Of a stretch of 23,504 bases of DNA, positions 1,320 to 23,201 are shown one piece after another. The DNA comes from a virus, in IMG/VR virus record IMGVR_UViG_3300020467_000056, positions 1 through 23,504 of that record; one strand, written 5' to 3'. The translations under genes were made by a program, and so were the position numbers. Within the stretch, counting starts at the first letter, position 1. Each line of letters begins with the position of its first letter. The notes beneath the pieces were generated by a model, which did not search any database, had not been told where the DNA came from, and saw nothing but the letters and a program-made list of their open reading frames with translations.

Positions 1320-1485
1320 ACCCAAATCCTCGGTTAGTAAGTTGACGTGCTTTTTCCTTCTCATTTAATAATTTATTAAGAGAAGTCTTTAGTTTGATGA
1401 GTTCTTCATCATTGTAAAGATGTGACTGCTTAAGTGCCTTTCGGATGTACTTAATTTGCAGTTTATCGGAAAAGAATTTCCTCAT
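1309..1485 (-). CDS. 58-aa basic, probably helical hypothetical protein
   Basis: The 58-residue frame begins MRKFFSDKLQIKYIRKALK and continues through a Lys/Leu/Glu-rich stretch (about 28-47) that should be a continuous amphipathic helix. It starts with an ATGA overlap on the stop of the Dam-like methylase gene, and ends overlapping the next small gene, so translation is probably coupled. There is no recognisable motif. A small regulator or inhibitor is possible but not shown. Confidence 0.6.
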   Translation of the reverse strand: MRKFFSDKLQIKYIRKALKQSHLYNDEELIKLKTSLNKLLNEKEKARQLTNRGFGYDT

Positions 1486-2042
1486 GCTTGTAGTATAAGA
1501 GATTGAATAGGATTTGTGGTGAGATCTTGTGACACTTTATTGAATGGCACATATAATGTACCATACTTACCAAATACTTCATTGAAGTGAGTAAGATTGT
1601 CACCAAGATATATTATAGCAGATTGAAAAGGTGATGCACCTTTACCATCACCAAACTTCATACGTTTGTTGATAGCAATCCAAGGGTAATTACAACATGA
1701 TTTCCACCATTTAGTAGACACATCTAGTTTAATTAATAATACTAACTCCTTAGCATTTCCCTGTTGATATTGTGATACAGCGTATGGAATCCATTCCTTA
1801 CTATTACTATAAGGATGATTCATAAACACTTTACCATGCCATTTGTGTGATAGACCATCATCACTTTCATCATAATAATTGTTAGCAGGAACATTGGGAT
1901 TGTCCTTGTCATTACAACATGGGTCTAGGTCAATCGTACCAAAGAACTTAATAACATCTCCCACAAAATCAGTGGGAGTGTTCCATTTATCAGTACGATT
2001 ACCAGTCGTTGATGTTAATGCTTGAAGAGCAGTTGTTGTCAT
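1482..2042 (-). CDS. Phage DNA N6-adenine methyltransferase (Dam-type)
   Basis: The 186-residue product matches the compact phage DNA N-6-adenine methyltransferase family, which transfers a methyl group from S-adenosylmethionine to adenine, usually in GATC. Visible marks are DKWNTPTDFV (18-27), IDLDPC (37-42, the strand around the cofactor pocket), VPANNYY (51-57), the catalytic loop MNHPYS (74-79) and RMKFGDGKG (127-135) before the strand SAIIYLG. The usual catalytic tetrad is (N/D)PPY; here the second position is His (NHPY), a mild departure. The gene begins directly after the ParB-like gene stops, in the operon from the 3208 promoter. A MutH/Sau3AI-like nuclease, whose family cuts GATC, lies just upstream, so protection of phage DNA is a reasonable inference. 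Confidence 0.85.
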   Translation of the reverse strand: MTTTALQALTSTTGNRTDKWNTPTDFVGDVIKFFGTIDLDPCCNDKDNPNVPANNYYDESDDGLSHKWHGKVFMNHPYSNSKEWIPYAVSQYQQGNAKELVLLIKLDVSTKWWKSCCNYPWIAINKRMKFGDGKGASPFQSAIIYLGDNLTHFNEVFGKYGTLYVPFNKVSQDLTTNPIQSLILQA

Positions 2043-3080: not shown

Positions 3081-3085
3081 TTAGT

Positions 3086-3173
3086 CTCTACCTTGTAGTT
3101 TGTTTTTCGTAAGAGTTGAGTTTACTACGAATAGGTAGGATTTACACCTACAGTCATCCTCTGTTTTAGACTG
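3086..3173 (-). promoter_or_regulatory. Structured 5' leader of the ParB-like/methylase operon
   Basis: The predicted transcript from the 3208 promoter has a leader of about 90 nt with two adjoining hairpins. The first is CAGTC/GACTG (3169-3173 with 3151-3155). The second is GTAGG/CCTAC with a seven-base loop (3147-3151 with 3135-3139). They share one base, so they stack or compete. A further TTACTA/TAGTAA inverted repeat (3122-3127 with 3175-3180) partly overlaps the -10 box and would not be fully transcribed. The T-arm-like second hairpin suggested a tRNA, but no cloverleaf can be completed. Confidence 0.4.
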
Positions 3174-3179
3174 ATAGTA

Positions 3180-3208
3180 ATTATAACAGATATTTTATCT
3201 ATTGTCAA
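3180..3208 (-). promoter_or_regulatory. Consensus sigma70 promoter for the ParB-like/methylase operon
   Basis: On the minus strand TTGACA (3208-3203) and TATAAT (3185-3180) are both perfect consensus hexamers separated by 17 bases. The promoter lies between the stop of the MutH-like gene and the ParB-like gene. As host sigma70 promoters drive early genes in T4-like cyanophages, early expression of the methylase operon is expected. Confidence 0.85.
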
Positions 3209-3222
3209 AAATGTTATGAAAC

Positions 3223-3828
3223 TTAAACATTAAATAATAACTTTTCAAAGTTTCTTGTTAGATAAAATGCCATATACTTATTCTTTAGTTGTTGACCATT
3301 ATATACTAATGGAGTGTAATTACCTTCCTTATTCTTACCTGCTTTAGTTCTAATTTGTAGTAGTTTGTTAACTCCATTCTTATCTCTAGGTCCATTAAAT
3401 GTTCTTAATTGTTCACCATTATTATATGCTGAACGAACACAATCACTAATATAATCCCAGTCCTCAGATAGTTGATCAAATATCAAAGGAGATGTATATC
3501 TATTGAAAATAAGATCAGTATCAAACTTACCTTCTTTAGTGAATCTAATAAACCAACAATTACTTAACTTTGCAAATACTTTACTCTGTTTAAATGATAC
3601 TCCATTAATCAGTTCATCTAAAACATGTTTTAATTGAGTAACAGCAATAGTTTGTCCTGTTTTGAATGATTTACCTTCACCATCATCAAAATCAAGTAAA
3701 CCAGAACACAATTCTTTACCTAATAGTTGTTCAATTATTTGTCCTCTCTTGCCTTTGTTTCTACCATAGTTAGGTATCAAACTTTTATCAAGAGAGTCAA
3801 ACTTAGATTTTGCTTCTCGAAGTAACAT
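3223..3828 (-). CDS. MutH/Sau3AI-family DNA endonuclease
   Basis: The product, 201 residues from ATG at 3828, resembles MutH along its length. KGKRGQIIEQLLG (25-37) corresponds to the MutH segment with the first catalytic Glu (here E33). LLDFDDGEGKSFKT (44-57) supplies a D...E-x-K metal-binding site (probably D48/D49, E51, K53). LLQIRTKAGKN (156-166) matches MutH LQIRPKAAN, and FYLTRNFEKLL (188-198) matches the FYLKKNF end. The family nicks or cuts at GATC, with methylation blocking cleavage. An in-frame extension exists to TTG at 3987, but its sequence coincides with predicted RNA hairpins, is visibly less AT-rich, and is not needed for the fold, so I prefer 3828. No clear ribosome site precedes 3828; a second candidate is ATG at 3894 right after GAGGAG. 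Confidence 0.8.
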   Translation of the reverse strand: MLLREAKSKFDSLDKSLIPNYGRNKGKRGQIIEQLLGKELCSGLLDFDDGEGKSFKTGQTIAVTQLKHVLDELINGVSFKQSKVFAKLSNCWFIRFTKEGKFDTDLIFNRYTSPLIFDQLSEDWDYISDCVRSAYNNGEQLRTFNGPRDKNGVNKLLQIRTKAGKNKEGNYTPLVYNGQQLKNKYMAFYLTRNFEKLLFNV

Positions 3829-3841
3829 GACAACAATAAAA

Positions 3842-4094
3842 TAGCTAGCGGATGTTAGTTCTTTCTTCGGTAGCGAACCGAGAGGCACATCCATCTCCTC
3901 GTTTTTGTGTGTAGGACTTACAGGGCGTAATTTCTCAACTGAATTGAGACAACCATAGACCCTTGCCCAAATGGTGAGCGAAAACAAAACTGAGGGTCTT
4001 ATGTGTGCATTACCCCAACGGTAATATCCTGCTTGCTAAATCGGTTGAATCAACCTACTTTGTCAGGTAGTCGGGAACTCGTTTGTTTTCGCTC
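3842..4094 (-). ncRNA. Predicted structured RNA upstream of the MutH-like gene
   Basis: About 250 nt between the 4099-4128 promoter and the nuclease gene have no convincing coding content but many helices. A perfect 13-bp stem (4082-4094 with 3976-3988) begins at the expected transcription start. It encloses three hairpins: 4067-4070/4055-4058, 4051-4055/4043-4047 (GGTTG-ATT-CAACC) and 4020-4025/4009-4014 (ATTACC/GGTAAT). Downstream are a 6-bp hairpin (3944-3949/3933-3938), a 6-bp stem 3887-3892/3850-3855 and, inside it, TCGGT/ACCGA (3877-3881/3867-3871). A 7-bp pairing (3993-3999 with 3957-3963) brackets the 3' arm of the long stem. The region is visibly less AT-rich than its flanks. It may be a regulatory leader, a free small RNA or a relic of a mobile-element guide RNA; I do not recognise a known family. 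Confidence 0.55.
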
Positions 4095-4098
4095 CTCT

Positions 4099-4128
4099 AT
4101 TATAATAGATGTCATTGCCTTGTGTCAA
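4099..4128 (-). promoter_or_regulatory. Strong sigma70 promoter of the structured RNA
   Basis: The minus strand has TTGACA (4128-4123), an 18-base spacer and TATAAT (4104-4099). The predicted start near 4092-4094 coincides with the first base of the 13-bp stem of the structured RNA, which supports the RNA as the primary product. The promoter lies just after the stop of the 66-aa gene. Confidence 0.85.
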
Positions 4129-4141
4129 CTAAGTGGACACT

Positions 4142-4342
4142 TTACTCACCGCCATACCCCAAATGCAATTTCTGTATCATATTCTCAAGTTGATACCTCA
4201 CCTCCTGATATGCTTCAGCAGTTAATAGTTTCTCTTTCTTCGCCTTAACTTCTAACTCTTTCATATATGATAAGAACGCATCCTTTAATAGTTGCTTTTC
4301 TCTATCATCTAATAATATACACTCAGGCAATTCAATGTCCAT
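4142..4342 (-). CDS. 66-aa hypothetical protein, helical
   Basis: The short protein begins MDIELPECILLDDREKQLL and is rich in Lys, Glu and Leu, predicting mostly alpha helix with a basic middle (KAKKEKLL). A GGGAG ribosome site lies nine bases before the ATG. It starts two bases after the preceding gene stops, so it closes the small-gene operon that runs from the promoter near 5309-5338. No domain is recognised. Confidence 0.65.
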   Translation of the reverse strand: MDIELPECILLDDREKQLLKDAFLSYMKELEVKAKKEKLLTAEAYQEVRYQLENMIQKLHLGYGGE

Positions 4343-4344
4343 TG

Positions 4345-4677
4345 TTAATACTCCCTCTTTTCAGACATATAATAATCACCCAATGAACCACTCATTAGAG
4401 TTTCACTAATATCACCATTTGGTGTACTAATAGTTGGTTCCACATGATTATTCTTCTTACCAAATGCTAATGGTGGAATATGAGGATTATCCATATTTCC
4501 AATAAGATCTATTACTTGATCTCGTAATTCCATCAACTCATTATAGCATAGTTGATTATGAGAACAAGACCTTAAATGATGATCAGGTTTATACAAAGAC
4601 TCTAATAAAAGAGTCCTTGCCCTGTTCCATTTATCTTGTTTTGATTCATCATCTTGAATCGTGTTCTGGTCTTTCAT
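4345..4677 (-). CDS. 110-aa hypothetical protein
   Basis: The 110-residue protein has a helical N-terminal half (KWNRARTLLLESLYK, then YNELMELRDQVIDLIGNM at about 44-61) and a low-complexity C-terminal half with GDISETLMSGSLGDYYM. It contains C38 and C44 around a His, but no full metal site. Its ATG overlaps the TAA of the 48-aa gene upstream (TAATG), which indicates coupled translation. I do not recognise the family. Confidence 0.65.
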   Translation of the reverse strand: MKDQNTIQDDESKQDKWNRARTLLLESLYKPDHHLRSCSHNQLCYNELMELRDQVIDLIGNMDNPHIPPLAFGKKNNHVEPTISTPNGDISETLMSGSLGDYYMSEKREY

Positions 4678-5351: not shown

Positions 5352-6686
5352 TTATTGTTTGGTTATCTTAATATATCCGTTACCTTGATATTGTCCACCA
5401 GTTGTTCCTGAGTTACCACCTTGAGTATTCTGTTGTGATGTTCCAGTGTTATACGAACCACCTCCACCTCCACATACACCATAAGATGACCAACTACCAG
5501 AAGTACCTCCTCCAGTCCATCCTCCAGCAGCACCAGGAGATGCCAAATTACCTCCTCCACCACCGCCAAATCCTCCAGCGTTACCATCTGTAGGTGCATA
5601 GCAATGATCACCTCTTCCACCTGTTAATCCATTATTCCATCCCTTACCCTTAGAGTTGTTCATGTTGCAATGACTTGAACCATCTGTTCCATCACTATAA
5701 TATCCTCCACCAGCAGCACCAGTATGAGGACCACATCTATTACCACCATATCCAGCAGAAGGTTGACTAGGTTGGCAATAACATCCGTATCTACCTCCAT
5801 ACTCACCACTTCTACCTTCACAATGACTAGTAGGTCTACCACATGACCATCCATAGTTACCACCCATAGAACCACCACCGCCTCCAGCGATTATTATTGG
5901 TGTATTATTTTTAACTACAAATGAACCTCCACCACCTCCACACTCATTACCATGAGGACAATAGTATTGGTTACCACCAACACCAACAACCATTTCTAAT
6001 TGATCACCCTTAGTCAATGCAAACGTACCTTTTATCTTTGCACCCCAAATATTATATTGTCCATAGTTTAAATCTCTACCTCCTCTAGCACCTCCACATT
6101 CAATTTCATAATTAGCATCTTCAGGTATAGTCCACTTTTGACAACCTGTAAATGAACCTTGTTGAAAATTAGTACCATCATTCCATGCTTCACCTGAATA
6201 TGCACTTGTTATTTGACTCCATGATGGTGCATCCTTTTCTCCTCTACCTACAATAGATTTGAATGTAAATGATGAGAAATCAAATAGAGTATTACCTTCA
6301 CCAGCACCAAATGGTGTTATCCATCCCGCTTCTTCTTCTTCATCATTATCTCCAGGTTCTCCAGGATCCCAGTACACTTCGATTGAATTTGAATCTGTAT
6401 TCCATCCTATCCTACCATTAATTAATCCACTGGTAGGTTTTGTTGATTCATCCCATGTAGGAAGTACATCCATTGCTCTTCCAACTGGAACCCATGTACT
6501 ACCATTCCAAACAACTAATTGTTCTAATGTTGAATCGTATATACAACAACCAGCATCACCACCTCCTAAACTTGTAGGACGTTGAGCAGTTGTAAATACT
6601 GGAAATCCCAGACCTCCATCTCCTGTAACCGAAGAGGTTGCAGATAGGTTTGTTGAATTTACTCTAGCAGCACTAAATTGAGACAT
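5352..6686 (-). CDS. Glycine-rich tail fibre adhesin, type A copy 1
   Basis: The protein has 444 residues. Residues about 25-70 form the fibre module common to this block (FTTAQRPTSLGG, then VVWNGSTWVPVG), with a second, weaker copy to about 130. From about 150 comes a domain like the glycine-rich domain of ALK/LTK receptors: QKWTIPEDANYEIECGGARGG, KGTFALTKGDQLEMVVGVGG, GGGGGSFVV, IIIAGGGGGSMGG. The rest is glycine-rich with many Cys and Tyr (YGWSCGRPTSHCEG, GCYCQPSQPS) and ends GNGYIKITKQ. Such polyglycine-helix bundles form receptor-binding tips in T4-type gp38 adhesins. It is clearly paralogous to the protein at 8660-9961. A late promoter sits at 6710-6717 and AAGGAG precedes the ATG. Confidence 0.8.
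   Translation of the reverse strand: MSQFSAARVNSTNLSATSSVTGDGGLGFPVFTTAQRPTSLGGGDAGCCIYDSTLEQLVVWNGSTWVPVGRAMDVLPTWDESTKPTSGLINGRIGWNTDSNSIEVYWDPGEPGDNDEEEEAGWITPFGAGEGNTLFDFSSFTFKSIVGRGEKDAPSWSQITSAYSGEAWNDGTNFQQGSFTGCQKWTIPEDANYEIECGGARGGRDLNYGQYNIWGAKIKGTFALTKGDQLEMVVGVGGNQYYCPHGNECGGGGGSFVVKNNTPIIIAGGGGGSMGGNYGWSCGRPTSHCEGRSGEYGGRYGCYCQPSQPSAGYGGNRCGPHTGAAGGGYYSDGTDGSSHCNMNNSKGKGWNNGLTGGRGDHCYAPTDGNAGGFGGGGGGNLASPGAAGGWTGGGTSGSWSSYGVCGGGGGSYNTGTSQQNTQGGNSGTTGGQYQGNGYIKITKQ
6022..6086. repeat. 65-bp block identical to 9342-9406
   Basis: This stretch, inside the type A adhesin copy 1, is identical base for base to 9342-9406 in copy 2. A second identical block of 50 bp pairs 5938-5987 with 9258-9307. 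Neighbouring stretches encode the same residues but differ at synonymous positions, so these blocks are more similar than protein conservation alone requires. Confidence 0.8.
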
Positions 6687-6709
6687 GAGATGAAATTAAC
6701 TCCTTTATA

Positions 6710-6717
6710 TATTTATT
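6710..6717 (-). promoter_or_regulatory. T4-type late promoter (AATAAATA) for the type A copy 1 adhesin
   Basis: The minus strand reads AATAAATA, one base from the T4 late consensus, 24 bases before the ATG at 6686. It overlaps the stop codon of the upstream adhesin gene. An AAAGGAG ribosome site follows it. Confidence 0.55.
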
Positions 6718-7861
6718 GATCCTGTGTGCCTGTTGCTGGAAATGCTCTATTTGGTCCCCATATAATTCTAACAGCACCAGTACCACCATACCAACCACCT
6801 GCGTCATTGGCACCTGCACCACCGCCATAAGTTCCACCTGGAGTTGGTTGGTCACTTGAACAAGAACCTGTACCATTTGTACCACCTGACCCACCTTGAC
6901 CAGCACCACAGTTACTAGAACTAGAACCTCCGCTAGTACCTTCACCTAATATTCCTACTCCACCGCCACCGCCACCATAATCTTCTCCACCATTTGTCCA
7001 ACCGCCACCACCAGCACCACCTGAACCTGACCATCCAGAGTTACCACTAGCATACTGTCCACAGTGTCCACCATTACCACCATTTCCTGAATATCCTCCT
7101 GCACCACCACCACCGCATGATGATCCAGTATCACTTAAACTACTTCTATTTCCATCTCCACCATTACCACCAAATCCTCCACCTTGTATAGTTCCACCAC
7201 TTCCACCATATCCTCCACCTTCACCACCGTAACCTGCTCTGTTAGAAGAACCGTTTCTATCTCTACCAGTTCCACCACCACCTCCACCATAAACAGTATT
7301 AGTGTCTATAAAAAATGAATCTCCACCATTATACCCATAACCACTTGTACTTGTTTGTGCTTGACCACCAGAACCAACACTTACAGCATAACTCTGACCT
7401 GGTTGAACTTGAATACCGTTTGCCCATCCGAGACCAGCACCACCACCTGCACCTCGTTCATCTCTAGTAGAACCACCTCCACCACCAACACATACTACTG
7501 AAACATCATAAACATTATCAGGACATGTCCAACTATATGTTCCTGCTGATGTATATGCCTCTTGACCTGTAGCAGAAGTTTCACCTCCACCTGCACCTCC
7601 ACCTCCTACTGGTGGTTGTGATATTAATAACCAATCACTACCATCATATACTTCTATACCCAACTTAGTTTCATTAATTCTGATCATCCCCTTTTGTGGA
7701 GATGAAGGTCTTTCATCTGTAGTGCCTGATGGAAGACATATTTGACCACCATGACTGGTTTTTAGAGTTCCTATAACATTTAAATGAGCAGTGTCCTTCA
7801 TACGGATTTTCATACCCGTCAATTCTGGACCCATTATCCCGTTTGTCTTTATGGTACTCAT
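6713..7861 (-). CDS. Glycine-rich tail fibre adhesin, type B
   Basis: The 382-residue protein opens MSTIKTNGIMGPELTGMKIR, then has the fibre module LPSGTTDERPSSPQKG...IEVYDGSDWLLI (about 42-80). A sandwich-like segment follows (YTSAGTYSWTCPDNVYDV, SVVCVGGGGG) and then about 230 residues dominated by Gly, Ser and Asn with regularly spaced aromatic residues. It ends with GAVRIIWGPNRAFPATGT, a C-terminal signature I associate with glycine-rich cyanophage fibres. Type B differs from type A in lacking the GNGYIKIT end. Its ATG overlaps the stop of the coiled-coil gene (ATGA), so the two are cotranslated from the late promoter at 8392-8399. Receptor binding is inferred. Confidence 0.75.
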   Translation of the reverse strand: MSTIKTNGIMGPELTGMKIRMKDTAHLNVIGTLKTSHGGQICLPSGTTDERPSSPQKGMIRINETKLGIEVYDGSDWLLISQPPVGGGGAGGGETSATGQEAYTSAGTYSWTCPDNVYDVSVVCVGGGGGSTRDERGAGGGAGLGWANGIQVQPGQSYAVSVGSGGQAQTSTSGYGYNGGDSFFIDTNTVYGGGGGGTGRDRNGSSNRAGYGGEGGGYGGSGGTIQGGGFGGNGGDGNRSSLSDTGSSCGGGGAGGYSGNGGNGGHCGQYASGNSGWSGSGGAGGGGWTNGGEDYGGGGGGVGILGEGTSGGSSSSNCGAGQGGSGGTNGTGSCSSDQPTPGGTYGGGAGANDAGGWYGGTGAVRIIWGPNRAFPATGTQDQ

Positions 7862-8361
7862 GCTGTTGCTATCTCCTCTTTAGGATCATCATCATCATCA
7901 AAATTAACAGGTATATGTCCTCTTCCAGCATTTATATCTGCTTCTAATATTTTTGCTGCATCTGGTTGCATAACAGATTCAACAGGAGAAGGATCGGAGA
8001 CAGTAGGTGCAACAAATTCCTTTTGTAATTTAAACTCCCTAGCGTTCATTTCTTCCTTCAACTCCTCAATATTTTTATTGAGTTTCTTTATTTCTAATTC
8101 TTGCTTCTTAACAGTTAATCCAAGTTCAACCTTCTCATCATCCTTATCAGTATCTTCTGGTCTAACCTTCAAAAATCCCAAAGGAAGATCATGAGAATTT
8201 ATATCCTCCTCACTATCCTTATCAGTTTGTGCAATAACTTCAGTCATTTGCATTACAAGACTTTCTTTAAGTTTTATCGCCTCTTCTAATTCGGTATCTA
8301 ACCTATTGATATTAACATTAGATTCTGAAATTAATTTTTCAAGTTCTTTAAAAGTTCTCAT
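7858..8361 (-). CDS. Coiled-coil structural or fibre-assembly protein
   Basis: The protein is 167 residues from ATG at 8361, which has a good AAGGA site five bases upstream; an in-frame TTG at 8376 lacks one. Two heptad-like helical stretches are visible, about 3-40 (FKELEKLISESNVNINRL and on) and about 78-115 (ELGLTVKKQELEIKKLNK and on), separated by an acidic linker. The C-terminus is acidic (NFDDDDDPKEE). Coiled coils of this kind trimerise fibres or act as fibre chaperones. Coupling to the type B adhesin downstream supports a role with that fibre. The exact function is not known. Confidence 0.65.
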   Translation of the reverse strand: MRTFKELEKLISESNVNINRLDTELEEAIKLKESLVMQMTEVIAQTDKDSEEDINSHDLPLGFLKVRPEDTDKDDEKVELGLTVKKQELEIKKLNKNIEELKEEMNAREFKLQKEFVAPTVSDPSPVESVMQPDAAKILEADINAGRGHIPVNFDDDDDPKEEIATA

Positions 8362-8391
8362 TAGTCCTTGACACAATAATAGACCTAATCT

Positions 8392-8399
8392 TATTTATA
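8392..8399 (-). promoter_or_regulatory. T4-type late promoter (TATAAATA) for the coiled-coil/type B adhesin pair
   Basis: An exact TATAAATA on the minus strand lies about 30 bases before the ATG at 8361 and directly after the stop of the zinc-ribbon gene. Confidence 0.65.
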
Positions 8400-8401
8400 C
8401 A

Positions 8402-8656
8402 CTACCACTTACCAATAGGGCATTTGGCATCTGGATGTTTACTTTTCATTTTCATAAAACATTGACATTTCTCACATAAAAAATTGACCTTATCATAACT
8501 GTCACAGTTATTACATAACGCCAATCTTTCATTTTGTAACTCAGGTCTAACAAATGGTATGGGATCATTAAAATCAGTCCATGTCTGACCATCTGCCCAT
8601 GTTACAGGTTTATCAGTATACCAATGATAACGAGTAGTCCACTTTCTAGGTTGCAT
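8402..8656 (-). CDS. Cys-rich zinc-ribbon mini-protein, long form
   Basis: The 84-residue protein has a Trp/Tyr-rich N-terminal part (TTRYHWYTDKPVTW) and a C-terminal Cys cluster: C48-x2-C51, C61-x2-C64-x-C66-F-M, and C79-P-x3-W at the end. This fits a small metal-binding ribbon. The last 37 residues match the whole second half of the 59-aa protein at 12063-12242 (CQCFM/CGCFM and CPIGKW/CPLEKW). It begins three bases after the type A copy 2 adhesin stops, so it is read with that gene. Both zinc-ribbon genes follow a fibre gene, which suggests a fibre-assembly or accessory role, unproven. Confidence 0.7.
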   Translation of the reverse strand: MQPRKWTTRYHWYTDKPVTWADGQTWTDFNDPIPFVRPELQNERLALCNNCDSYDKVNFLCEKCQCFMKMKSKHPDAKCPIGKW

Positions 8657-8659
8657 GAA

Positions 8660-9961
8660 TTATGCTTTAGTTATCTTTATATATCCATTTCCTTGATACT
8701 GTCCACCTTCTGTTCCTGAGTTACCACCTTGAGTATTCTGTTGTGATGTTCCACTATTGTAGGAACCTCCACCACCTCCACATACACCATAAGATGACCA
8801 GTTACCAGAACAGCAACCACCAGTCCATCCTCCAGCAGCACCAGGAGATGTTAGGTTTCCACCTCCACCTCCACCAAATCCACCTTGGTTTCCAGTACCA
8901 CTACTAGGTGCATAACAATGGTCTCCTCTACCTCCTTGCAAACCGTTATTATATCCTTTACCACCTCTTCCATTTCCACAGTGTCCACTATATTGTGAAG
9001 TTCCATCACCCTGATAACCTCCACCACCATGACCTGTATATGATCCACAAACATTACCACCATATCCAGCAGTAGGTTGTGATGGTTGACAATAGCAACC
9101 ATAACGTCCACCATATTCACCACTTCTACCTTCGCAGTGTGATGTTGGTCTACCGCATGACCATCCATAGTTACCACCCATAGAACCACCGCCACCACCT
9201 GCTGCAATCAACAGAGTATTTGTAGTTTTATTCTTAACAAAGGAACCACCTCCTCCACCACACTCATTACCATGAGGACAATAGTATTGGTTACCACCAA
9301 CACCAACCGCCATTTCTATTTGATCACTTTGAGTTAAAGCGAACGTACCTTTTATCTTTGCACCCCAAATATTATATTGTCCATAGTTTAAATCTCTACC
9401 TCCTCTTGCTCCACCTGCTTCAATAGTATAATTACCATCTTCAGGTACAGTCCATTTTTGATAACCTTGATGATCACCTTGAGCAAAATTAGTACCATCA
9501 TTCCAAGGTTGTCCAGAGTATTCTGACTGCATCTGAGAGAATGATGGACCTTCATCCTCACCTCTACTTACTATAGACTTAAACGTAAAAGTAGTAAAAT
9601 TAAATAATGGACCACTACCTTCACCTCCAGCAGCAGAACCAAAAGCAATCCAATCCGAACCGTTAAAAATCTCTGCTTGTGATGTATCTGTATTAAATCC
9701 AAACTGTGCAAGAGATGGTGATGATGGACGTGTTTCTGTCGTCCATGTTCTCATATTACCAGCACCAAGACTTAACCAAGAACTTCCTTTCCACACCTCA
9801 ACGTCAGTTCCAGTTGTATTGTATATAACTGTTCCTGGGTCAGCACTGGACGGTTTACCAGAGTCGGCATAATTAGGTGCTTTCAATGCAGAACCAGCAG
9901 AAACTATGCCTGTTGCGTGTACATTCTGCCCATTAATAGTGTCTACGTTTAAGGTACTCAT
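8660..9961 (-). CDS. Glycine-rich tail fibre adhesin, type A copy 2
   Basis: The 433-residue protein is the paralogue of the 5352-6686 product. Its N-terminus differs (MSTLNVDTINGQNVHATG) and has two fibre modules (DVEVWKGSSWLSLG and AEIFNGSDWIAFG). From about residue 140 the two proteins align closely through the ALK/LTK-like glycine-rich domain (QKWTVPEDGNYTIEAGGARGG, KGTFALTQSDQIEMAVGVGG) to the end GNGYIKITKA. Long stretches are identical in protein, separated by short variable segments, as at YGGNVCGSYTGHGGGGYQGD. A perfect late promoter lies upstream, with an AAAGGAG ribosome site. A second host-receptor specificity or a hetero-oligomeric tip are both possible. Confidence 0.8.
   Translation of the reverse strand: MSTLNVDTINGQNVHATGIVSAGSALKAPNYADSGKPSSADPGTVIYNTTGTDVEVWKGSSWLSLGAGNMRTWTTETRPSSPSLAQFGFNTDTSQAEIFNGSDWIAFGSAAGGEGSGPLFNFTTFTFKSIVSRGEDEGPSFSQMQSEYSGQPWNDGTNFAQGDHQGYQKWTVPEDGNYTIEAGGARGGRDLNYGQYNIWGAKIKGTFALTQSDQIEMAVGVGGNQYYCPHGNECGGGGGSFVKNKTTNTLLIAAGGGGGSMGGNYGWSCGRPTSHCEGRSGEYGGRYGCYCQPSQPTAGYGGNVCGSYTGHGGGGYQGDGTSQYSGHCGNGRGGKGYNNGLQGGRGDHCYAPSSGTGNQGGFGGGGGGNLTSPGAAGGWTGGCCSGNWSSYGVCGGGGGSYNSGTSQQNTQGGNSGTEGGQYQGNGYIKITKA
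9342..9406. repeat. 65-bp block identical to 6022-6086
   Basis: This is the partner of the repeat in the type A copy 1 adhesin gene. It encodes the segment around GRDLNYGQYNIWGAKIKG. Confidence 0.8.
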
Positions 9962-9986
9962 TCTTCAGTTTGCTCCTTTATATTGT

Positions 9987-9994
9987 TATTTATA
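9987..9994 (-). promoter_or_regulatory. T4-type late promoter (TATAAATA) for the type A copy 2 adhesin
   Basis: An exact TATAAATA on the minus strand lies 25 bases before the ATG at 9961 and just after the stop of the LamG-adhesin gene at 9997. Confidence 0.65.
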
Positions 9995-9996
9995 AC

Positions 9997-12030
9997 CTAG
10001 TACATTAACTGATTACCTTCTGTGGTAACAGTATATGATCCATCAATAACATCACTCTTATCTACATTGGTGGTAGGGAATGATCTAGTGAATGAATCAT
10101 CACCCCAAATAATCCTTACAACTCCATGACCACCCATACCTTGAGCATCACCTGAGTTTGCACCTCCACCACCTCCACCTGGAAATCCTCCATCAGGACA
10201 TGTATAACTTGAGTTACCATTATAGGATGGATGATATCTATTATATCCAGAACCACTACCTTCAAAGGTACTGTTATTAGATCTATTAGAATATCCTCTT
10301 AATCCAGTATTATGTGCTGTAGAACCTCCCTTACCACAGAAATGTGTTTCGTTATTAGGATATGAGTTCTGACCATTATTTCCTCTTATACCATTAGGTC
10401 CTTGACCATATATACCAGTTCCACCTCCACCACCGCAGTAGTGACTAGAACTACCATTAGCAGAGGAACCTCCTCCACCTCCACCATTTTGTCCATTATT
10501 ACCATTACATCCACTATATTGAGGATTACTTACTCTACCAGAGTTAGTTTGCCCACCACCATTATATCCTCCACATCCTCCACCTGCTTGTCTACATCCA
10601 CTATAGTGTGATGATGCTCCACCTTCTCCTCCACCATCTCCATTTGAATAATAACCACCAGGAATATTCCAACATTGACTACCATAGTTTCCTTTACCAC
10701 CTGTTCCACCACCAGCAACAGCATATTGAACACCAGCAATATTTACATAACTATTACTACCATCTGGTCCATATTGACCCCATCCATTTGCCATTCCACC
10801 ACCACCAACATAAACAGTAACGCTATCGCCTGGTGTTACAGTAATATTATTCTTATATGACAACGATCCACCTGCACCGCCAGCACCATCATGGTTAGAT
10901 TCTCCTCCACCACCTCCACCGATAGAAAGTACTGAAATATTAGTTACTCCATCTGGTACAGTCCAACTATGCATTGTTGAAGTATTAGGACCACTTGCAT
11001 GAAATACTACTTCTCCAGGTGGAGAAGAACCACCACCAGCAGCACCAAATGGATTTTCTGTCTGTGCTTCAACTAGACCATTACCAGCATTAATTATGGC
11101 ACCTGGTGCTCTAGTTGCAACAGTAGGTGAAACAGCATTAAGACTTAACATTAACAATTCAACTGTTGCTGTTGAAGCACCTTGAGAAGTTGTTGTTAAT
11201 GATGAAATAGGTACAGTAAGTGATGATGAAGGATAAAGAGCATCCTCAGTTAAACGAACATTTGATATCCACCCTTTAAAGTAATTCATACTGCCGCCAA
11301 CATTTAATCTATTACCAAAATCATTTGAAGCAGTGAAACCAAATGATTTAAATGCTACACTTGTACCATCTATAAACATTCTCCAATCAGTATCACCATC
11401 AGAACCATCATCATAAGAACAAATTGCTACATGATGCCATTCACCATCACTCAAAGTTGTCCAAGCACCACTTGCTTGTAAATGAAGACCTGCACCTGAT
11501 TGATATGACCAAACAAGATCATTATTCTGTCTCTTTATATGAGACATCATTACATTTGTAGAACTCTCCCAAAATTCCAATAGACCAGCATTTTGATCTG
11601 TTGTTCCATCATCTTTCATCCAAAATTCTACTGTCCATACAGAATCACTTGAATGAACCCATCCAAGTGCAGCAGCATACGCAGTTAAATAATTCCACTG
11701 ACCATCAAAATATGCACTATATGATACTGCATCCTCTGAACTTGCTCCTTGTCTCTCAGTAAATTCACCATAAGCATACCAAGTCCAACCATCCCAATAC
11801 TCTACACCAATTTCACTTCCCTCTGCATTATTATCAGTATTATATCGTACATATCCTGCTTCTGGATTAGATGGTCTTTGTGCTGTATTACCAACTGGTA
11901 ATTGAAAAGCACCACTATTCCTACTTAAATCTATAGTTCCTTTATTATCCAAGACATGTCCAGCACTCAGATTAACTTGCCCAATAGTGGCAGCAATACC
12001 TTCTAAATTTTGAATAACAATCTTACTCAT
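9997..12030 (-). CDS. LamG-like plus glycine-rich tail fibre adhesin, type B
   Basis: The 677-residue protein has three parts. Residues about 40-90 are the fibre module (LPVGNTAQRPSNPEAG, GVEYWDGWTWYAYG). Residues about 104-275 form a concanavalin/LamG-like jelly roll, recognised by VWTVEFWMKDDG, GEWHHVAICSYDDG, WRMFIDGTSV and GWISNVRLTEDALY; such domains bind glycans. From about 345 to 640 is a glycine-rich Cys- and Tyr-containing region that begins HSWTVPDGVTNISVLSIGGG and ends GVVRIIWGDDSFTRSFPTT, as in the type B protein at 6713-7861. Carbohydrate binding at the phage tail is inferred. It has its own late promoter, and an AGGAGG site precedes the ATG. Confidence 0.8.
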   Translation of the reverse strand: MSKIVIQNLEGIAATIGQVNLSAGHVLDNKGTIDLSRNSGAFQLPVGNTAQRPSNPEAGYVRYNTDNNAEGSEIGVEYWDGWTWYAYGEFTERQGASSEDAVSYSAYFDGQWNYLTAYAAALGWVHSSDSVWTVEFWMKDDGTTDQNAGLLEFWESSTNVMMSHIKRQNNDLVWSYQSGAGLHLQASGAWTTLSDGEWHHVAICSYDDGSDGDTDWRMFIDGTSVAFKSFGFTASNDFGNRLNVGGSMNYFKGWISNVRLTEDALYPSSSLTVPISSLTTTSQGASTATVELLMLSLNAVSPTVATRAPGAIINAGNGLVEAQTENPFGAAGGGSSPPGEVVFHASGPNTSTMHSWTVPDGVTNISVLSIGGGGGGESNHDGAGGAGGSLSYKNNITVTPGDSVTVYVGGGGMANGWGQYGPDGSNSYVNIAGVQYAVAGGGTGGKGNYGSQCWNIPGGYYSNGDGGGEGGASSHYSGCRQAGGGCGGYNGGGQTNSGRVSNPQYSGCNGNNGQNGGGGGGSSANGSSSHYCGGGGGTGIYGQGPNGIRGNNGQNSYPNNETHFCGKGGSTAHNTGLRGYSNRSNNSTFEGSGSGYNRYHPSYNGNSSYTCPDGGFPGGGGGGANSGDAQGMGGHGVVRIIWGDDSFTRSFPTTNVDKSDVIDGSYTVTTEGNQLMY

Positions 12031-20365: not shown

Positions 20366-20902
20366 CTATTTAGCAAGGTCATCAATAGTAAACAGACTTA
20401 TGAAGTCTAATCCTTCTTGTTCCATAATGGCACGACAATCATAATCTTGCCTATCAACTATAGTAACAACACGATCAACAACGTATCCTGCATCACGTAA
20501 CACATACACTGCTTTCAATGCAGATTGTCCAGTAGTTGTAACATCCTCTAGTACTGTTACTTTAGCACCTTTAGGTAATACTGGTCCTTCTATTTGAGAT
20601 TGAGTCCCATGACCTTTAGGTTCTTTCCTAATAATTAAACCATCAAGATCAACTTCATCTGCTGCTGATACTGTCACTACTCCACTTACTAATGGGTCAG
20701 CACCCAGAGTTAAACCTGCAACCGCAAATGTGTCTTCTTCTATACATTCAAGTAATAGACAACTAGCATAAAATAATCCTTTACCATTAAGTGTAACTGG
20801 TTTACAGTTTACATAATGAGTACTAAATGCACCAGAAGATAATGTAAACTCACCTTTACGATAAGCATCCTTCTTTAATAGTTCTAATAGTTGTTCTCTC
20901 AT
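20366..20902 (-). CDS. pyrE: Orotate phosphoribosyltransferase-like protein
   Basis: The 178-residue product has the orotate phosphoribosyltransferase signature. FTLSSGAFSTHYVNCK (19-34) is the N-terminal substrate motif, IRKEPKGHGT (91-100) is the flexible catalytic loop with R92, K93, K96 and H98, and VTVLEDVTTTGQSALK (115-130) is the PRPP-binding loop. The enzyme joins orotate to PRPP to make OMP for pyrimidine synthesis, in the cytoplasm. It is about 30 residues shorter than common bacterial PyrE, as in other compact versions. It overlaps the upstream 51-aa gene by ATGA and sits between the oxygenase cluster and the structural genes. Raising the nucleotide supply for phage DNA is the natural inference. 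Confidence 0.88.
   Translation of the reverse strand: MREQLLELLKKDAYRKGEFTLSSGAFSTHYVNCKPVTLNGKGLFYASCLLLECIEEDTFAVAGLTLGADPLVSGVVTVSAADEVDLDGLIIRKEPKGHGTQSQIEGPVLPKGAKVTVLEDVTTTGQSALKAVYVLRDAGYVVDRVVTIVDRQDYDCRAIMEQEGLDFISLFTIDDLAK
20367..20373 (-). promoter_or_regulatory. T4-type late promoter variant (CTAAATA) at the start of the structural block
   Basis: CTAAATA on the minus strand lies within the last codons of the pyrE-like gene, about 30 bases before the GTG of the 442-aa structural gene. It would separate late virion transcription from the small-gene/oxygenase group. Confidence 0.45.
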
Positions 20903-21054: not shown

Positions 21055-21205
21055 TTCTTTTCTCCTCCTTGATGTCGTATTCTATCACAATTTTCTTAGA
21101 AGTTCTACCGCTACTGGCAGATGTAGTCGATCTTGTCATTGTACCATCAAGTTCTGATGTTAACGTTAACAATTCCGCTATTAAATCTCCTTCATTTTCA
21201 ATCAT
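21041..21205 (-). CDS. 54-aa hypothetical protein
   Basis: The frame starts MIENEGDLIAELLTLTSEL and has a Ser/Thr-rich centre (TRSTTSASSGRTSKK) followed by IVIEYDIKEEK. It starts with an ATGA overlap on the upstream oxygenase gene and overlaps the next small gene by 14 bases. The strong ribosome site for that next gene is encoded in its KEE codons. Coupled translation is likely; function is unknown. Confidence 0.6.
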   Translation of the reverse strand: MIENEGDLIAELLTLTSELDGTMTRSTTSASSGRTSKKIVIEYDIKEEKRNVES

Positions 21206-21927
21206 TTAAACTTATCCTCACTTTTTTCATTAACATAGTTATCTAGCTTTTCAAAATTAATGTTAAATGCCAAACTTACTCTATCCGTTTTAGTTTCATT
21301 AGTTGATACACCATGATCTAAGTATGCAGGAAATAGTAACATCTTACCAACTTCAGCTAACTGAGATTGTTTATATCCATAATGACCAAAAACAAATGAT
21401 GTAGTATGGCATGGTGCAGGACTACTGAAATAAATATTACCTTCTGGTTGAGTTCCAAAAGAAGAACTTAACCCTTTTGCATCATTACTAGATTCTGCTT
21501 TAAAATAATAAACACCTGATATATCAGAAGCACCATGATTATGTACATGTGCATAATCTCTATAACCAAATTTAGACCACCAAGATTGTTGAATCTTATA
21601 CCTTATATTAGGTATATAACTACCATTATTTTCAAATCCTATAGCCCCTAAGAAATTAGAAAGATTCGCATGTATTGCTTTTTCTAATTCTTTTAAGTTA
21701 TCTTTAACTATAACATTACCACCAAAGGTAGTGTCCGATAATAAATGAGTCTGTCCAAAATCTTCTTTATACTCGTATGTACTATTGCGATAAGATACCT
21801 CTAATTCTTTCTGTATAGCTTCAGTGTTCTCACATCTACATGCAAATAATGGAGTAGAATATAGATGATATAAACACCCATTTGAGAATGACGCTATAGG
21901 GGCTTGAAAAGGGTATTGATCACTCAT
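21202..21927 (-). CDS. 2OG-Fe(II) oxygenase family protein
   Basis: The 241-residue protein belongs to the putative 2OG-Fe(II) oxygenase group that is abundant in cyanophages. The signature is HVHNHGASDISGVYYF (127-142), giving the first metal-binding His and acidic residue, then LLFPAYLDHGVSTN (197-210) with the distal H205, and R216 (TDRVSLAFNI) for 2-oxoglutarate. These enzymes hydroxylate or otherwise oxidise a substrate using Fe(II), O2 and 2-oxoglutarate; the phage substrates are not known. The gene overlaps its neighbours by eight bases upstream and four downstream. It shares the H-N-H-x-x-S-D-x-S-G motif with the oxygenase at 22545-23201. Confidence 0.75.
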   Translation of the reverse strand: MSDQYPFQAPIASFSNGCLYHLYSTPLFACRCENTEAIQKELEVSYRNSTYEYKEDFGQTHLLSDTTFGGNVIVKDNLKELEKAIHANLSNFLGAIGFENNGSYIPNIRYKIQQSWWSKFGYRDYAHVHNHGASDISGVYYFKAESSNDAKGLSSSFGTQPEGNIYFSSPAPCHTTSFVFGHYGYKQSQLAEVGKMLLFPAYLDHGVSTNETKTDRVSLAFNINFEKLDNYVNEKSEDKFK

Positions 21928-22500: not shown

Positions 22501-22551
22501 AGGTAGTGGGCAGTCCTTCTACGTGGACATCTTTTGTATTCCCACTAAAGA
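22501..22551. repeat. Nested inverted repeat between the oxygenase and 76-aa genes
   Basis: In the 71-base gap, TAGTGGG at about 22505 and CCCACTA at about 22541 form a 7-bp inverted repeat that encloses a second one, GTCC...GGAC. The outer arm includes the stop codon of the oxygenase gene. On the minus transcript it is not followed by a U-run, so it is not a typical terminator. A processing or mRNA-stability element is possible. Confidence 0.5.
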
Positions 22552-23201
22552 AGATTATCTTTATCTAAATGATAACCTTTTGGTTTGTAACCTGCTCCTA
22601 TATTAGCAGATTTAAAATCCATGTCAAGCTTTATATTAAAAGAAACAGAAATACGTTCTTCTTGTGATTGATTATCTTCAACACAATGGTCTAAACTTGC
22701 TGGAAATAATACACATTCTCCTTCTTGAGGTTCAAATCTAAACTGTGTCCACAATCCATTATCATCCTTAAATTCATTAGAATATGCAACTACTTCCATA
22801 AACCTACTATAATTATTATAATCATCAAATACTAATGAACCCATATCAGGACCACCTTTAACCCAAAAAACTCCTGATAAATCACTATTAGGATGATTAT
22901 GTTTAATATTATAACATCCAGGTCCATTAATATTAATCCACATTGCCTGAACTTCTATACCCACACCTTTTTGAAATATATTATTCTCTTGAACATAACT
23001 AGATAACCCAGAAGTAAGTGCATCACTTAAAGGATTATTAAACATACAAAAATGATCTTGTGATTGCCATCCTCCTCTATTAGACTTTTGCATACCATGA
23101 GGGTCTTCCTTACGTTGTTGGTAGCAATATTCAATTATTGACTGTCTATCAAAATCAGGAATTTTAAATTCATGAACTAATGTAGGAAATAATCTAATCA
23201 T
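22545..23201 (-). CDS. 2OG-Fe(II) oxygenase family protein
   Basis: The 218-residue protein opens MIRLFPTLVHEFKIPDFDRQ, a typical start of the cyanophage 2OG-Fe(II) oxygenase group. It shows IKHNHPNSDLSGVFWVKG (99-116) with H101/H103 and D107, then CVLFPASLDHCVEDN (163-177) with the distal H172, and R183 in ERISVSFNI for 2-oxoglutarate. It is distinct from, but related to, the 21202-21927 product. The substrate is unknown; protein or nucleic-acid hydroxylation during infection are both open. It is coupled to the 41-aa basic gene by an ATGA overlap. Confidence 0.8.
   Translation of the reverse strand: MIRLFPTLVHEFKIPDFDRQSIIEYCYQQRKEDPHGMQKSNRGGWQSQDHFCMFNNPLSDALTSGLSSYVQENNIFQKGVGIEVQAMWININGPGCYNIKHNHPNSDLSGVFWVKGGPDMGSLVFDDYNNYSRFMEVVAYSNEFKDDNGLWTQFRFEPQEGECVLFPASLDHCVEDNQSQEERISVSFNIKLDMDFKSANIGAGYKPKGYHLDKDNLL

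Follow-up and report, generated by a model that had tools for sequence, protein, structure and literature searches.

The window (the whole DNA stretch analysed here, a 23.5-kb virus record of 23,504 nucleotides) carries on its minus strand, from about position 4094 to the AUG at 3828, a structured 5' leader of the mRNA for a MutH/Sau3AI-like nuclease. Comparative evidence supports a structured, modular RNA on this strand, between promoter and start codon; a sequence-only reading of the same DNA had recognized the structure but had missed three separable modules (A, B, and C) and a terminal palindrome of variable sequence. The leader is probably one assembly from a kit of leader-RNA modules found in marine T4-like cyanophages, and the function that best fits its arrangement is, with similar confidence, that of a cis-acting post-transcriptional leader that would control mRNA stability and translation.

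Promoter, leader extent and downstream gene

The leader is preceded by a sigma-70 promoter that matches the consensus at 12 of 12 positions (minus strand, 4099..4128; TTGACA at 4128-4123 and TATAAT at 4104-4099, spaced by 18 nt); from the placement of this promoter, +1 is predicted at or just before a perfect 13-bp stem, consistent with the initial assignment of a strong promoter belonging to the RNA itself. Module A starts 4-5 nt past the perfect -10 box in the window, and an exact TATAAT was found in the 16-nt interval upstream of A in 39 of 72 distinct A copies, compared to 1.4% of random positions, usually at a distance of 7-9 nt to the first base of the A model. A promoter of sigma-70 type suggests transcription by the host polymerase early in infection. 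The segment is also less AT-rich than its neighbors, as had been noted from the letters (GC content 0.41-0.42 vs. 0.29-0.35 in nearby coding windows). Since the minimum free energy of the leader region is unremarkable (z about -1.5, unconvincing in isolation), the case for the leader rests on comparison.

The structured RNA had originally been delimited at 3842-4094; its structure was borne out in part, and the RNA runs on to the palindrome at 3849-3844 and then towards the AUG at 3828, through a U-rich spacer (minus strand, 3829..3843) without a Shine-Dalgarno sequence. Among the spacers between module C and the AUG, only 2 of 89 contain a Shine-Dalgarno 4-mer, and no intrinsic terminator was found on the leader strand, either within the leader or after the modules. 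A coding function or leader peptide through module C was rejected: the downstream AUG is randomly distributed over the three frames relative to C (42/35/28), which disfavors a fused peptide, and one C copy is frameshifted by a 1-nt deletion; the peptide encoded by an in-frame extension of the nuclease had already appeared unconvincing. A second leader at 3081-3222, before the ParB-like gene, was considered and rejected, as it has neither conserved relatives nor a fold signal.

The gene that follows the leader (minus strand, 3223..3828) encodes a predicted protein of 201 amino acids (PHROG 15364) whose structural model, of medium quality (pLDDT 63.8), has its best Foldseek match in MutH (2aor; probability 1.00, E 1.1e-3), followed by Sau3AI; the profile match to MutH is weaker (E 0.048), and relatives of the nuclease match the Pfam family MvaI_BcnI (E 6.5e-4). 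The earlier recognition of a MutH-like nuclease thus holds up as a predicted MutH/Sau3AI-like fold, a structure match with weak sequence support. The leader is missing from relatives of this nuclease at about 48% identity, and a specific tie between the leader and the MutH-like nuclease was therefore rejected. A ParB-like/DUF6551 gene and a gene for a Dam-type adenine methyltransferase share a gene run with the nuclease gene (window 1482-2042, 3223-3828); adenine methyltransferase matches were found in 99 of 187 leader-bearing loci, and the leaders are thus often located in a DNA-modification island. Elsewhere, the window encodes four long, probable tail or adhesion proteins that contain glycine-rich stretches (5352-12030, where the plus strand has a strongly negative GC skew), a JmjC-like gene and two 2OG-Fe(II) oxygenase genes (159-812, 21202-21927, and 22545-23201), and a product that by eye resembles orotate phosphoribosyltransferase without a Pfam match (20366-20902).

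Covarying modules of the leader

Module A, the 5'-terminal domain (minus strand, 3973..4094; supported by an nhmmer match), consists of the helices P1, P2, and P3 and an inserted hairpin. P1 is the perfect 13-bp stem at the predicted +1 (4094-4082/3988-3976), a length reached in none of 300 dinucleotide shuffles of the region, in which the longest perfect stem had 11 bp. Compensatory change in this stem, the check originally proposed for it, was found: P1 covaries across A subtypes, and its arms form duplexes of -17.3 kcal/mol on average with each other vs. -10.1 kcal/mol with the arms of dissimilar copies. The interior of the stem had been drawn as three hairpins; comparison replaces them with nested helices P2 (4076-4070/4019-4013) and P3 (4067-4064/4031-4028), with a hairpin of 27 nt, private to the window, inserted in the P3 loop (about 4063-4032). 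Across P2 and P3, 97.7% of the cells are paired vs. 83% after shuffling, and 6 of the 12 pairs show changes on both sides; in the wider sequence set, examples of P2 are UUCUUUC/GAAAGAG, GUUCAUC/GAUGAAU, UCUAAAC/GUUUAGG, and GUCAAAC/GUUUGAU, and P3 appears as GUCUG/CAGAC, CUCUG/CAGAG, CUAAG/CUUAG, GACUG/CAGUC, and CCUUG/CAAGG. P2 contains 49 G.U vs. 5 A.C cells, and therefore the folded molecule is the RNA of the transcribed strand.

Module B (minus strand, 3914..3967) is a hairpin with helices P1 (AGGG/CCCU) and P2 (CUCAA/UUGAG), a UUCAG loop, and a conserved asymmetric internal loop (UCUAUGGUUGU/AAAUUACG); it was found in 99 viral stretches by an IMG/VR pattern scan. Changes on both sides affect 7 of its 11 pairs, 99.1% of the cells are paired, and the internal loop is invariant. 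The sequence-only reading had proposed a switchable 7-bp pairing (3957-3963/3993-3999) that would compete with the long stem; this pairing is confined to the window, one of 28 A-B loci, and its B-side strand pairs inside B instead, with covariation.

Module C (minus strand, 3850..3901) is a near-invariant 52-nt element that ends in the palindrome and occurs in at least 119 viral stretches (IMG/VR pattern scan); relaxing the C pattern in P2 gave the same loci among the matches listed. Its hairpin UCGGU-UCGCU-ACCGA (minus strand, 3881-3867) contains four covarying pairs. Around this hairpin, the helices GAGG/CCUC and GGAUGU/ACAUCC would plausibly form a candidate H-type pseudoknot; both helices are invariant in 30 distinct sequences. 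The compensatory changes in A, B, and the C hairpin, together with the strand-specific G.U pairs, indicate that it is the RNA that folds. As a caveat, exact B and C patterns were the main means of retrieving the loci, so that variation inside these patterns is under-sampled, and the counts refer to distinct sequences and not to independent evolutionary events.

In searches against Rfam, the comparison that had been recommended at the outset, no known family matched: neither the window nor any of 23 related loci gave a match at the gathering score, nothing appeared at E<=5 over 3700-4250, and nothing at E<=2 over positions 3980-4500 of a related locus, L033. Together with the covariation and a promoter in register, this is in agreement with the original description of an undescribed structured RNA.

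Module chains in marine cyanophages

When the leader was compared to phage genomes by blastn, it matched in separate blocks that fall into unannotated gaps, in the Prochlorococcus phages P-SSM2, P-SSM5, and P-SSM7, the Synechococcus phages S-SSM4 and S-SSM6b, and single-cell marine viruses. The modules recur in the Kyanoviridae isolates P-SSM2, P-SSM5, P-SSM7, and S-SSM4, all with homologs of A, and across the roughly 190 viral loci that were retrieved; the isolate records have no annotated feature at the leader positions. The B and C patterns are each absent from 84,980 bacterial and archaeal genomes, and module A had no match in the plasmids searched; a host or plasmid origin was rejected on these grounds. 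A further pattern for A (ACGAGTTCCYRACTAC) was dropped, as the loci it returned looked unrelated.

The modules are strung together in different chains, including A-B-C, A-C, A-b (B inside A), D-F-C, A-d-B-C, and D-F-E-B, among others, and are separated by open, A/C/U-rich linkers. The P3 loop of A is either reduced to a 4-nt minimum (UUAG, UCAG, ACAG, or ACUG) or holds an insert; the inserts belong to more than 20 families, among them B, D, and E, and several of these are also found outside A. A shuffled order of A, B, and C was rejected: in P-SSM5, B is nested inside A. Module F, from related leaders, is a pseudoknot in which the hairpin stem covaries strongly and the loop helix shows one both-side change. 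P-SSM2 and P-SSM5 each harbor one D-based array, about 0.7 kb beyond A. Domain D, a second large domain with the outer stem GUGAGGG/CCCUCAC, has the same leader role as A and also accepts B in one loop; it was seen in L111, L115, L033, and other loci, and at 56701-56816 in P-SSM2. Module E, of about 145 nt (GGGCAAACGCAAGGCAGGGGUGAG...GUUGUAAGUCCC; loci L019, L070, and L072), is a larger and highly conserved RNA domain.

The distance between the last module and the AUG is mostly 10-30 nt, whether the leader ends in A, B, or C. Between the end of C and the AUG lie 21-28 nt in most contexts, with eight contexts at 7 nt, and 17 clusters of downstream proteins follow C at fixed spacing; they include the MutH-like nuclease, DUF6267, and an antirestriction-type protein (PHROG 36653), alongside many unknowns. 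A lies 16 nt before the AUG of an unannotated ORF in S-SSM4 and about 19 nt before the AUG in P-SSM7; as A occurs there without B or C, no single module set is required. The S-SSM4 copy (HQ316583.1, 1272-1366) precedes a small ORF of at least 40 amino acids, upstream of a tRNA-Val gene.

Other functions would account for parts of this pattern. In a riboswitch-like leader, B and the plug-in modules would be small-molecule aptamers, A the scaffold, and C the expression platform; the strictly conserved asymmetric internal loop of B on its covarying frame is what an aptamer could look like, and the cyanophage leader motifs manA and wcaG are riboswitch candidates (PMC2864571). Yet the downstream genes share no common pathway, the free combination and nesting of modules is unlike known riboswitches, and neither a conserved switch pairing (the proposed one is limited to a single locus) nor an intrinsic terminator on the leader strand was found, leaving this reading unlikely. 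The position directly after strong promoters, in several cases just downstream of terminator-like sequences, would also suit processive antitermination in cis on RNA polymerase, as by the put RNAs of phage HK022 or by Bacillus EAR; put elements, however, are short stem-loop pairs, and neither the fixed spacing from last module to AUG nor the palindrome would be expected, which makes antitermination improbable. Low probability is likewise given to the spread of the modules between loci and loops as selfish DNA, comparable to mitochondrial double-hairpin elements or REP: the same modules do occur at different places, nested in one another, and in some genomes only, but each complete genome has a single A, the modules keep a strict register with promoter and AUG, their G.U pairs are strand-specific, and B and C were not found in host genomes. 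The promoter and the compact, covarying domains could finally indicate a stand-alone small RNA that is processed from the leader and acts in trans, by titrating a host protein or pairing with a host mRNA, and the near-invariance of C and of the B loops would suit a conserved partner; such an RNA seems doubtful, since the spacing to the AUG that is kept for many genes would be poorly explained, and no terminator follows the modules.

Terminal palindrome, proposed function and related RNAs

In the window, the palindrome GCUAGC (minus strand, 3844..3849) follows the last nucleotide of C without a gap. An exact 6-nt palindrome follows C in 119 of 121 distinct contexts, compared to 1 in 64 expected at random, and takes seven sequences (GCTAGC 59, CACGTG 21, CCTAGG 15, CTATAG 14, CCATGG 8, TCTAGA 1, and GCATGC 1); the remaining two contexts have the 7-nt palindromes CCTTAGG and CCATTGG. 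Each of the three mirror pairs shows both-side changes, and pairing is kept in 30 of 30 rows. Two contigs carry two C copies each, with GCTAGC twice in L019 and CCATGG and CTATAG in L073. Because the palindrome takes several forms even where the C core is unchanged, or where the protein cluster downstream is the same, selection appears to act on self-complementarity and not on any single sequence. Neighboring nucleotides of a single RNA chain cannot pair with each other, and therefore the mirror covariation points to intermolecular pairing; the palindrome suggests that the RNA could pair with itself as a homodimer. Mirror covariation has been read as evidence of intermolecular contacts in the OLE and GOLLD RNAs (PMC12286853).

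The main alternative to an RNA dimer is that a dimeric protein, such as a regulator or a restriction-type enzyme, recognizes the palindrome in double-stranded DNA. Several of the seven hexamers coincide with common restriction sites, a gene for a MutH/Sau3AI-like nuclease follows the leader in the window, and adenine methyltransferases are encoded near many leaders; but the palindrome varies with the same C core and before the same gene while self-complementarity is kept, and the nuclease relatives at about 48% identity have no leader, so that a DNA site, too, is assigned a small probability. The suggestion that the RNA is what remains of a TnpB/IscB guide RNA or a self-splicing intron, prompted by a structured RNA upstream of a nuclease gene, can practically be dismissed, since the window has neither a TnpB/IscB or intron signature nor an Rfam intron or HEARO/omega-RNA match, the nuclease has a MutH/Sau3AI fold, and the same RNA precedes non-nuclease genes.

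A regulatory leader was among the options of the sequence-only reading, and it remains the best fit, with modules placed between promoter and AUG before many genes, but without the switch pairing, which is not conserved. The individual biochemical steps of such a cis-acting leader are less certain than the cis-acting role itself. The comparisons support an arrangement in which A begins within a few nucleotides of the predicted +1, closed by its long helix, and accepts other structured modules in one of its loops, the socket; modules beyond A (B here, others elsewhere) follow as beads on the A/C/U-rich linkers, and C, nearest to the start codon, ends in a hexamer that stays self-complementary as its sequence changes. 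As to function, the 5' helix may shield the mRNA from RNase attack that depends on the 5' end; C, just outside the ribosome footprint, may tune initiation at an AUG without a Shine-Dalgarno sequence; the palindrome may pair two transcripts as an RNA homodimer; and the interchangeable modules could be binding or recognition domains. It is only tentatively proposed that these features together constitute a new RNA system, a combinatorial, recursively nested domain kit with a socket loop and an end module that imposes mRNA homodimerization via a diversifying palindrome. Structured phage mRNA leaders are known, and none with swapped, nested autonomous RNA domains was found in the open-licence PMC literature. 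Ocean cyanophages commonly carry the kit, the cultured P-SSM2 among them, yet it was invisible to annotation; it is a naturally occurring collection of portable RNA folds, and it allows a direct test of palindrome-driven mRNA homodimers, as phage and host are both cultured.

The cyanophage leader RNAs named in open-licence PMC papers are manA, wcaG, PhotoRC-II, the glutamine riboswitch, and CfrI; the Rfam comparison covered the first four and gave no match to the leader. The manA and wcaG motifs (RF01745, RF01761) are structured RNAs in potential 5' UTRs of T4-like cyanophage genes (PMC2864571). The leader described here also occupies a phage-gene 5' UTR, with the order and spacing of promoter, RNA, and AUG, but it precedes other gene sets and has interchangeable, nested modules and a terminal palindrome. 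In OLE and GOLLD, palindromic segments change in sequence yet stay self-complementary, and ROOL RNAs are described as phage- or prophage-borne (PMC12286853). The leader shares with OLE and GOLLD a self-complementary segment with mirror covariation (three of three pairs, 30 of 30 sequences); however, OLE, GOLLD, and ROOL are single large RNAs of fixed architecture, whereas here short domains are recombined before protein genes, and none of these families had an Rfam match in the window or in the 23 related loci. In STAXI, structured units that include pseudoknots are arrayed in tandem near genes for antirestriction proteins, among others (PMC2864571). Tandem structured units near such genes are found in the leaders as well, with a pseudoknot that in C is a candidate only; STAXI repeats one pseudoknot, whereas the leader kit mixes and nests distinct modules.

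The leader of phage T4 gene 32 combines a pseudoknot with an unstructured A/U-rich stretch before the AUG, and mediates autoregulation by gp32; the arrangement of upstream structure and an open A/U-rich stretch before the AUG is similar, but the T4 leader serves one gene and is bound by gp32, whereas the kit precedes many genes. Stable bacterial mRNAs such as ompA have 5'-terminal stem-loops and thus resemble the leader in that the mRNA starts with a helix; the helix in A differs in that a conserved core of several helices lies inside it, with a socket for modules. Finally, the dimerization initiation site of HIV-1 is a six-nt palindrome that varies between subtypes and stays self-complementary, as does the palindrome of the cyanophage leaders; in HIV-1 it occupies a hairpin loop of a packaged RNA genome, whereas here it forms the 3' flank of a helix in a phage mRNA.
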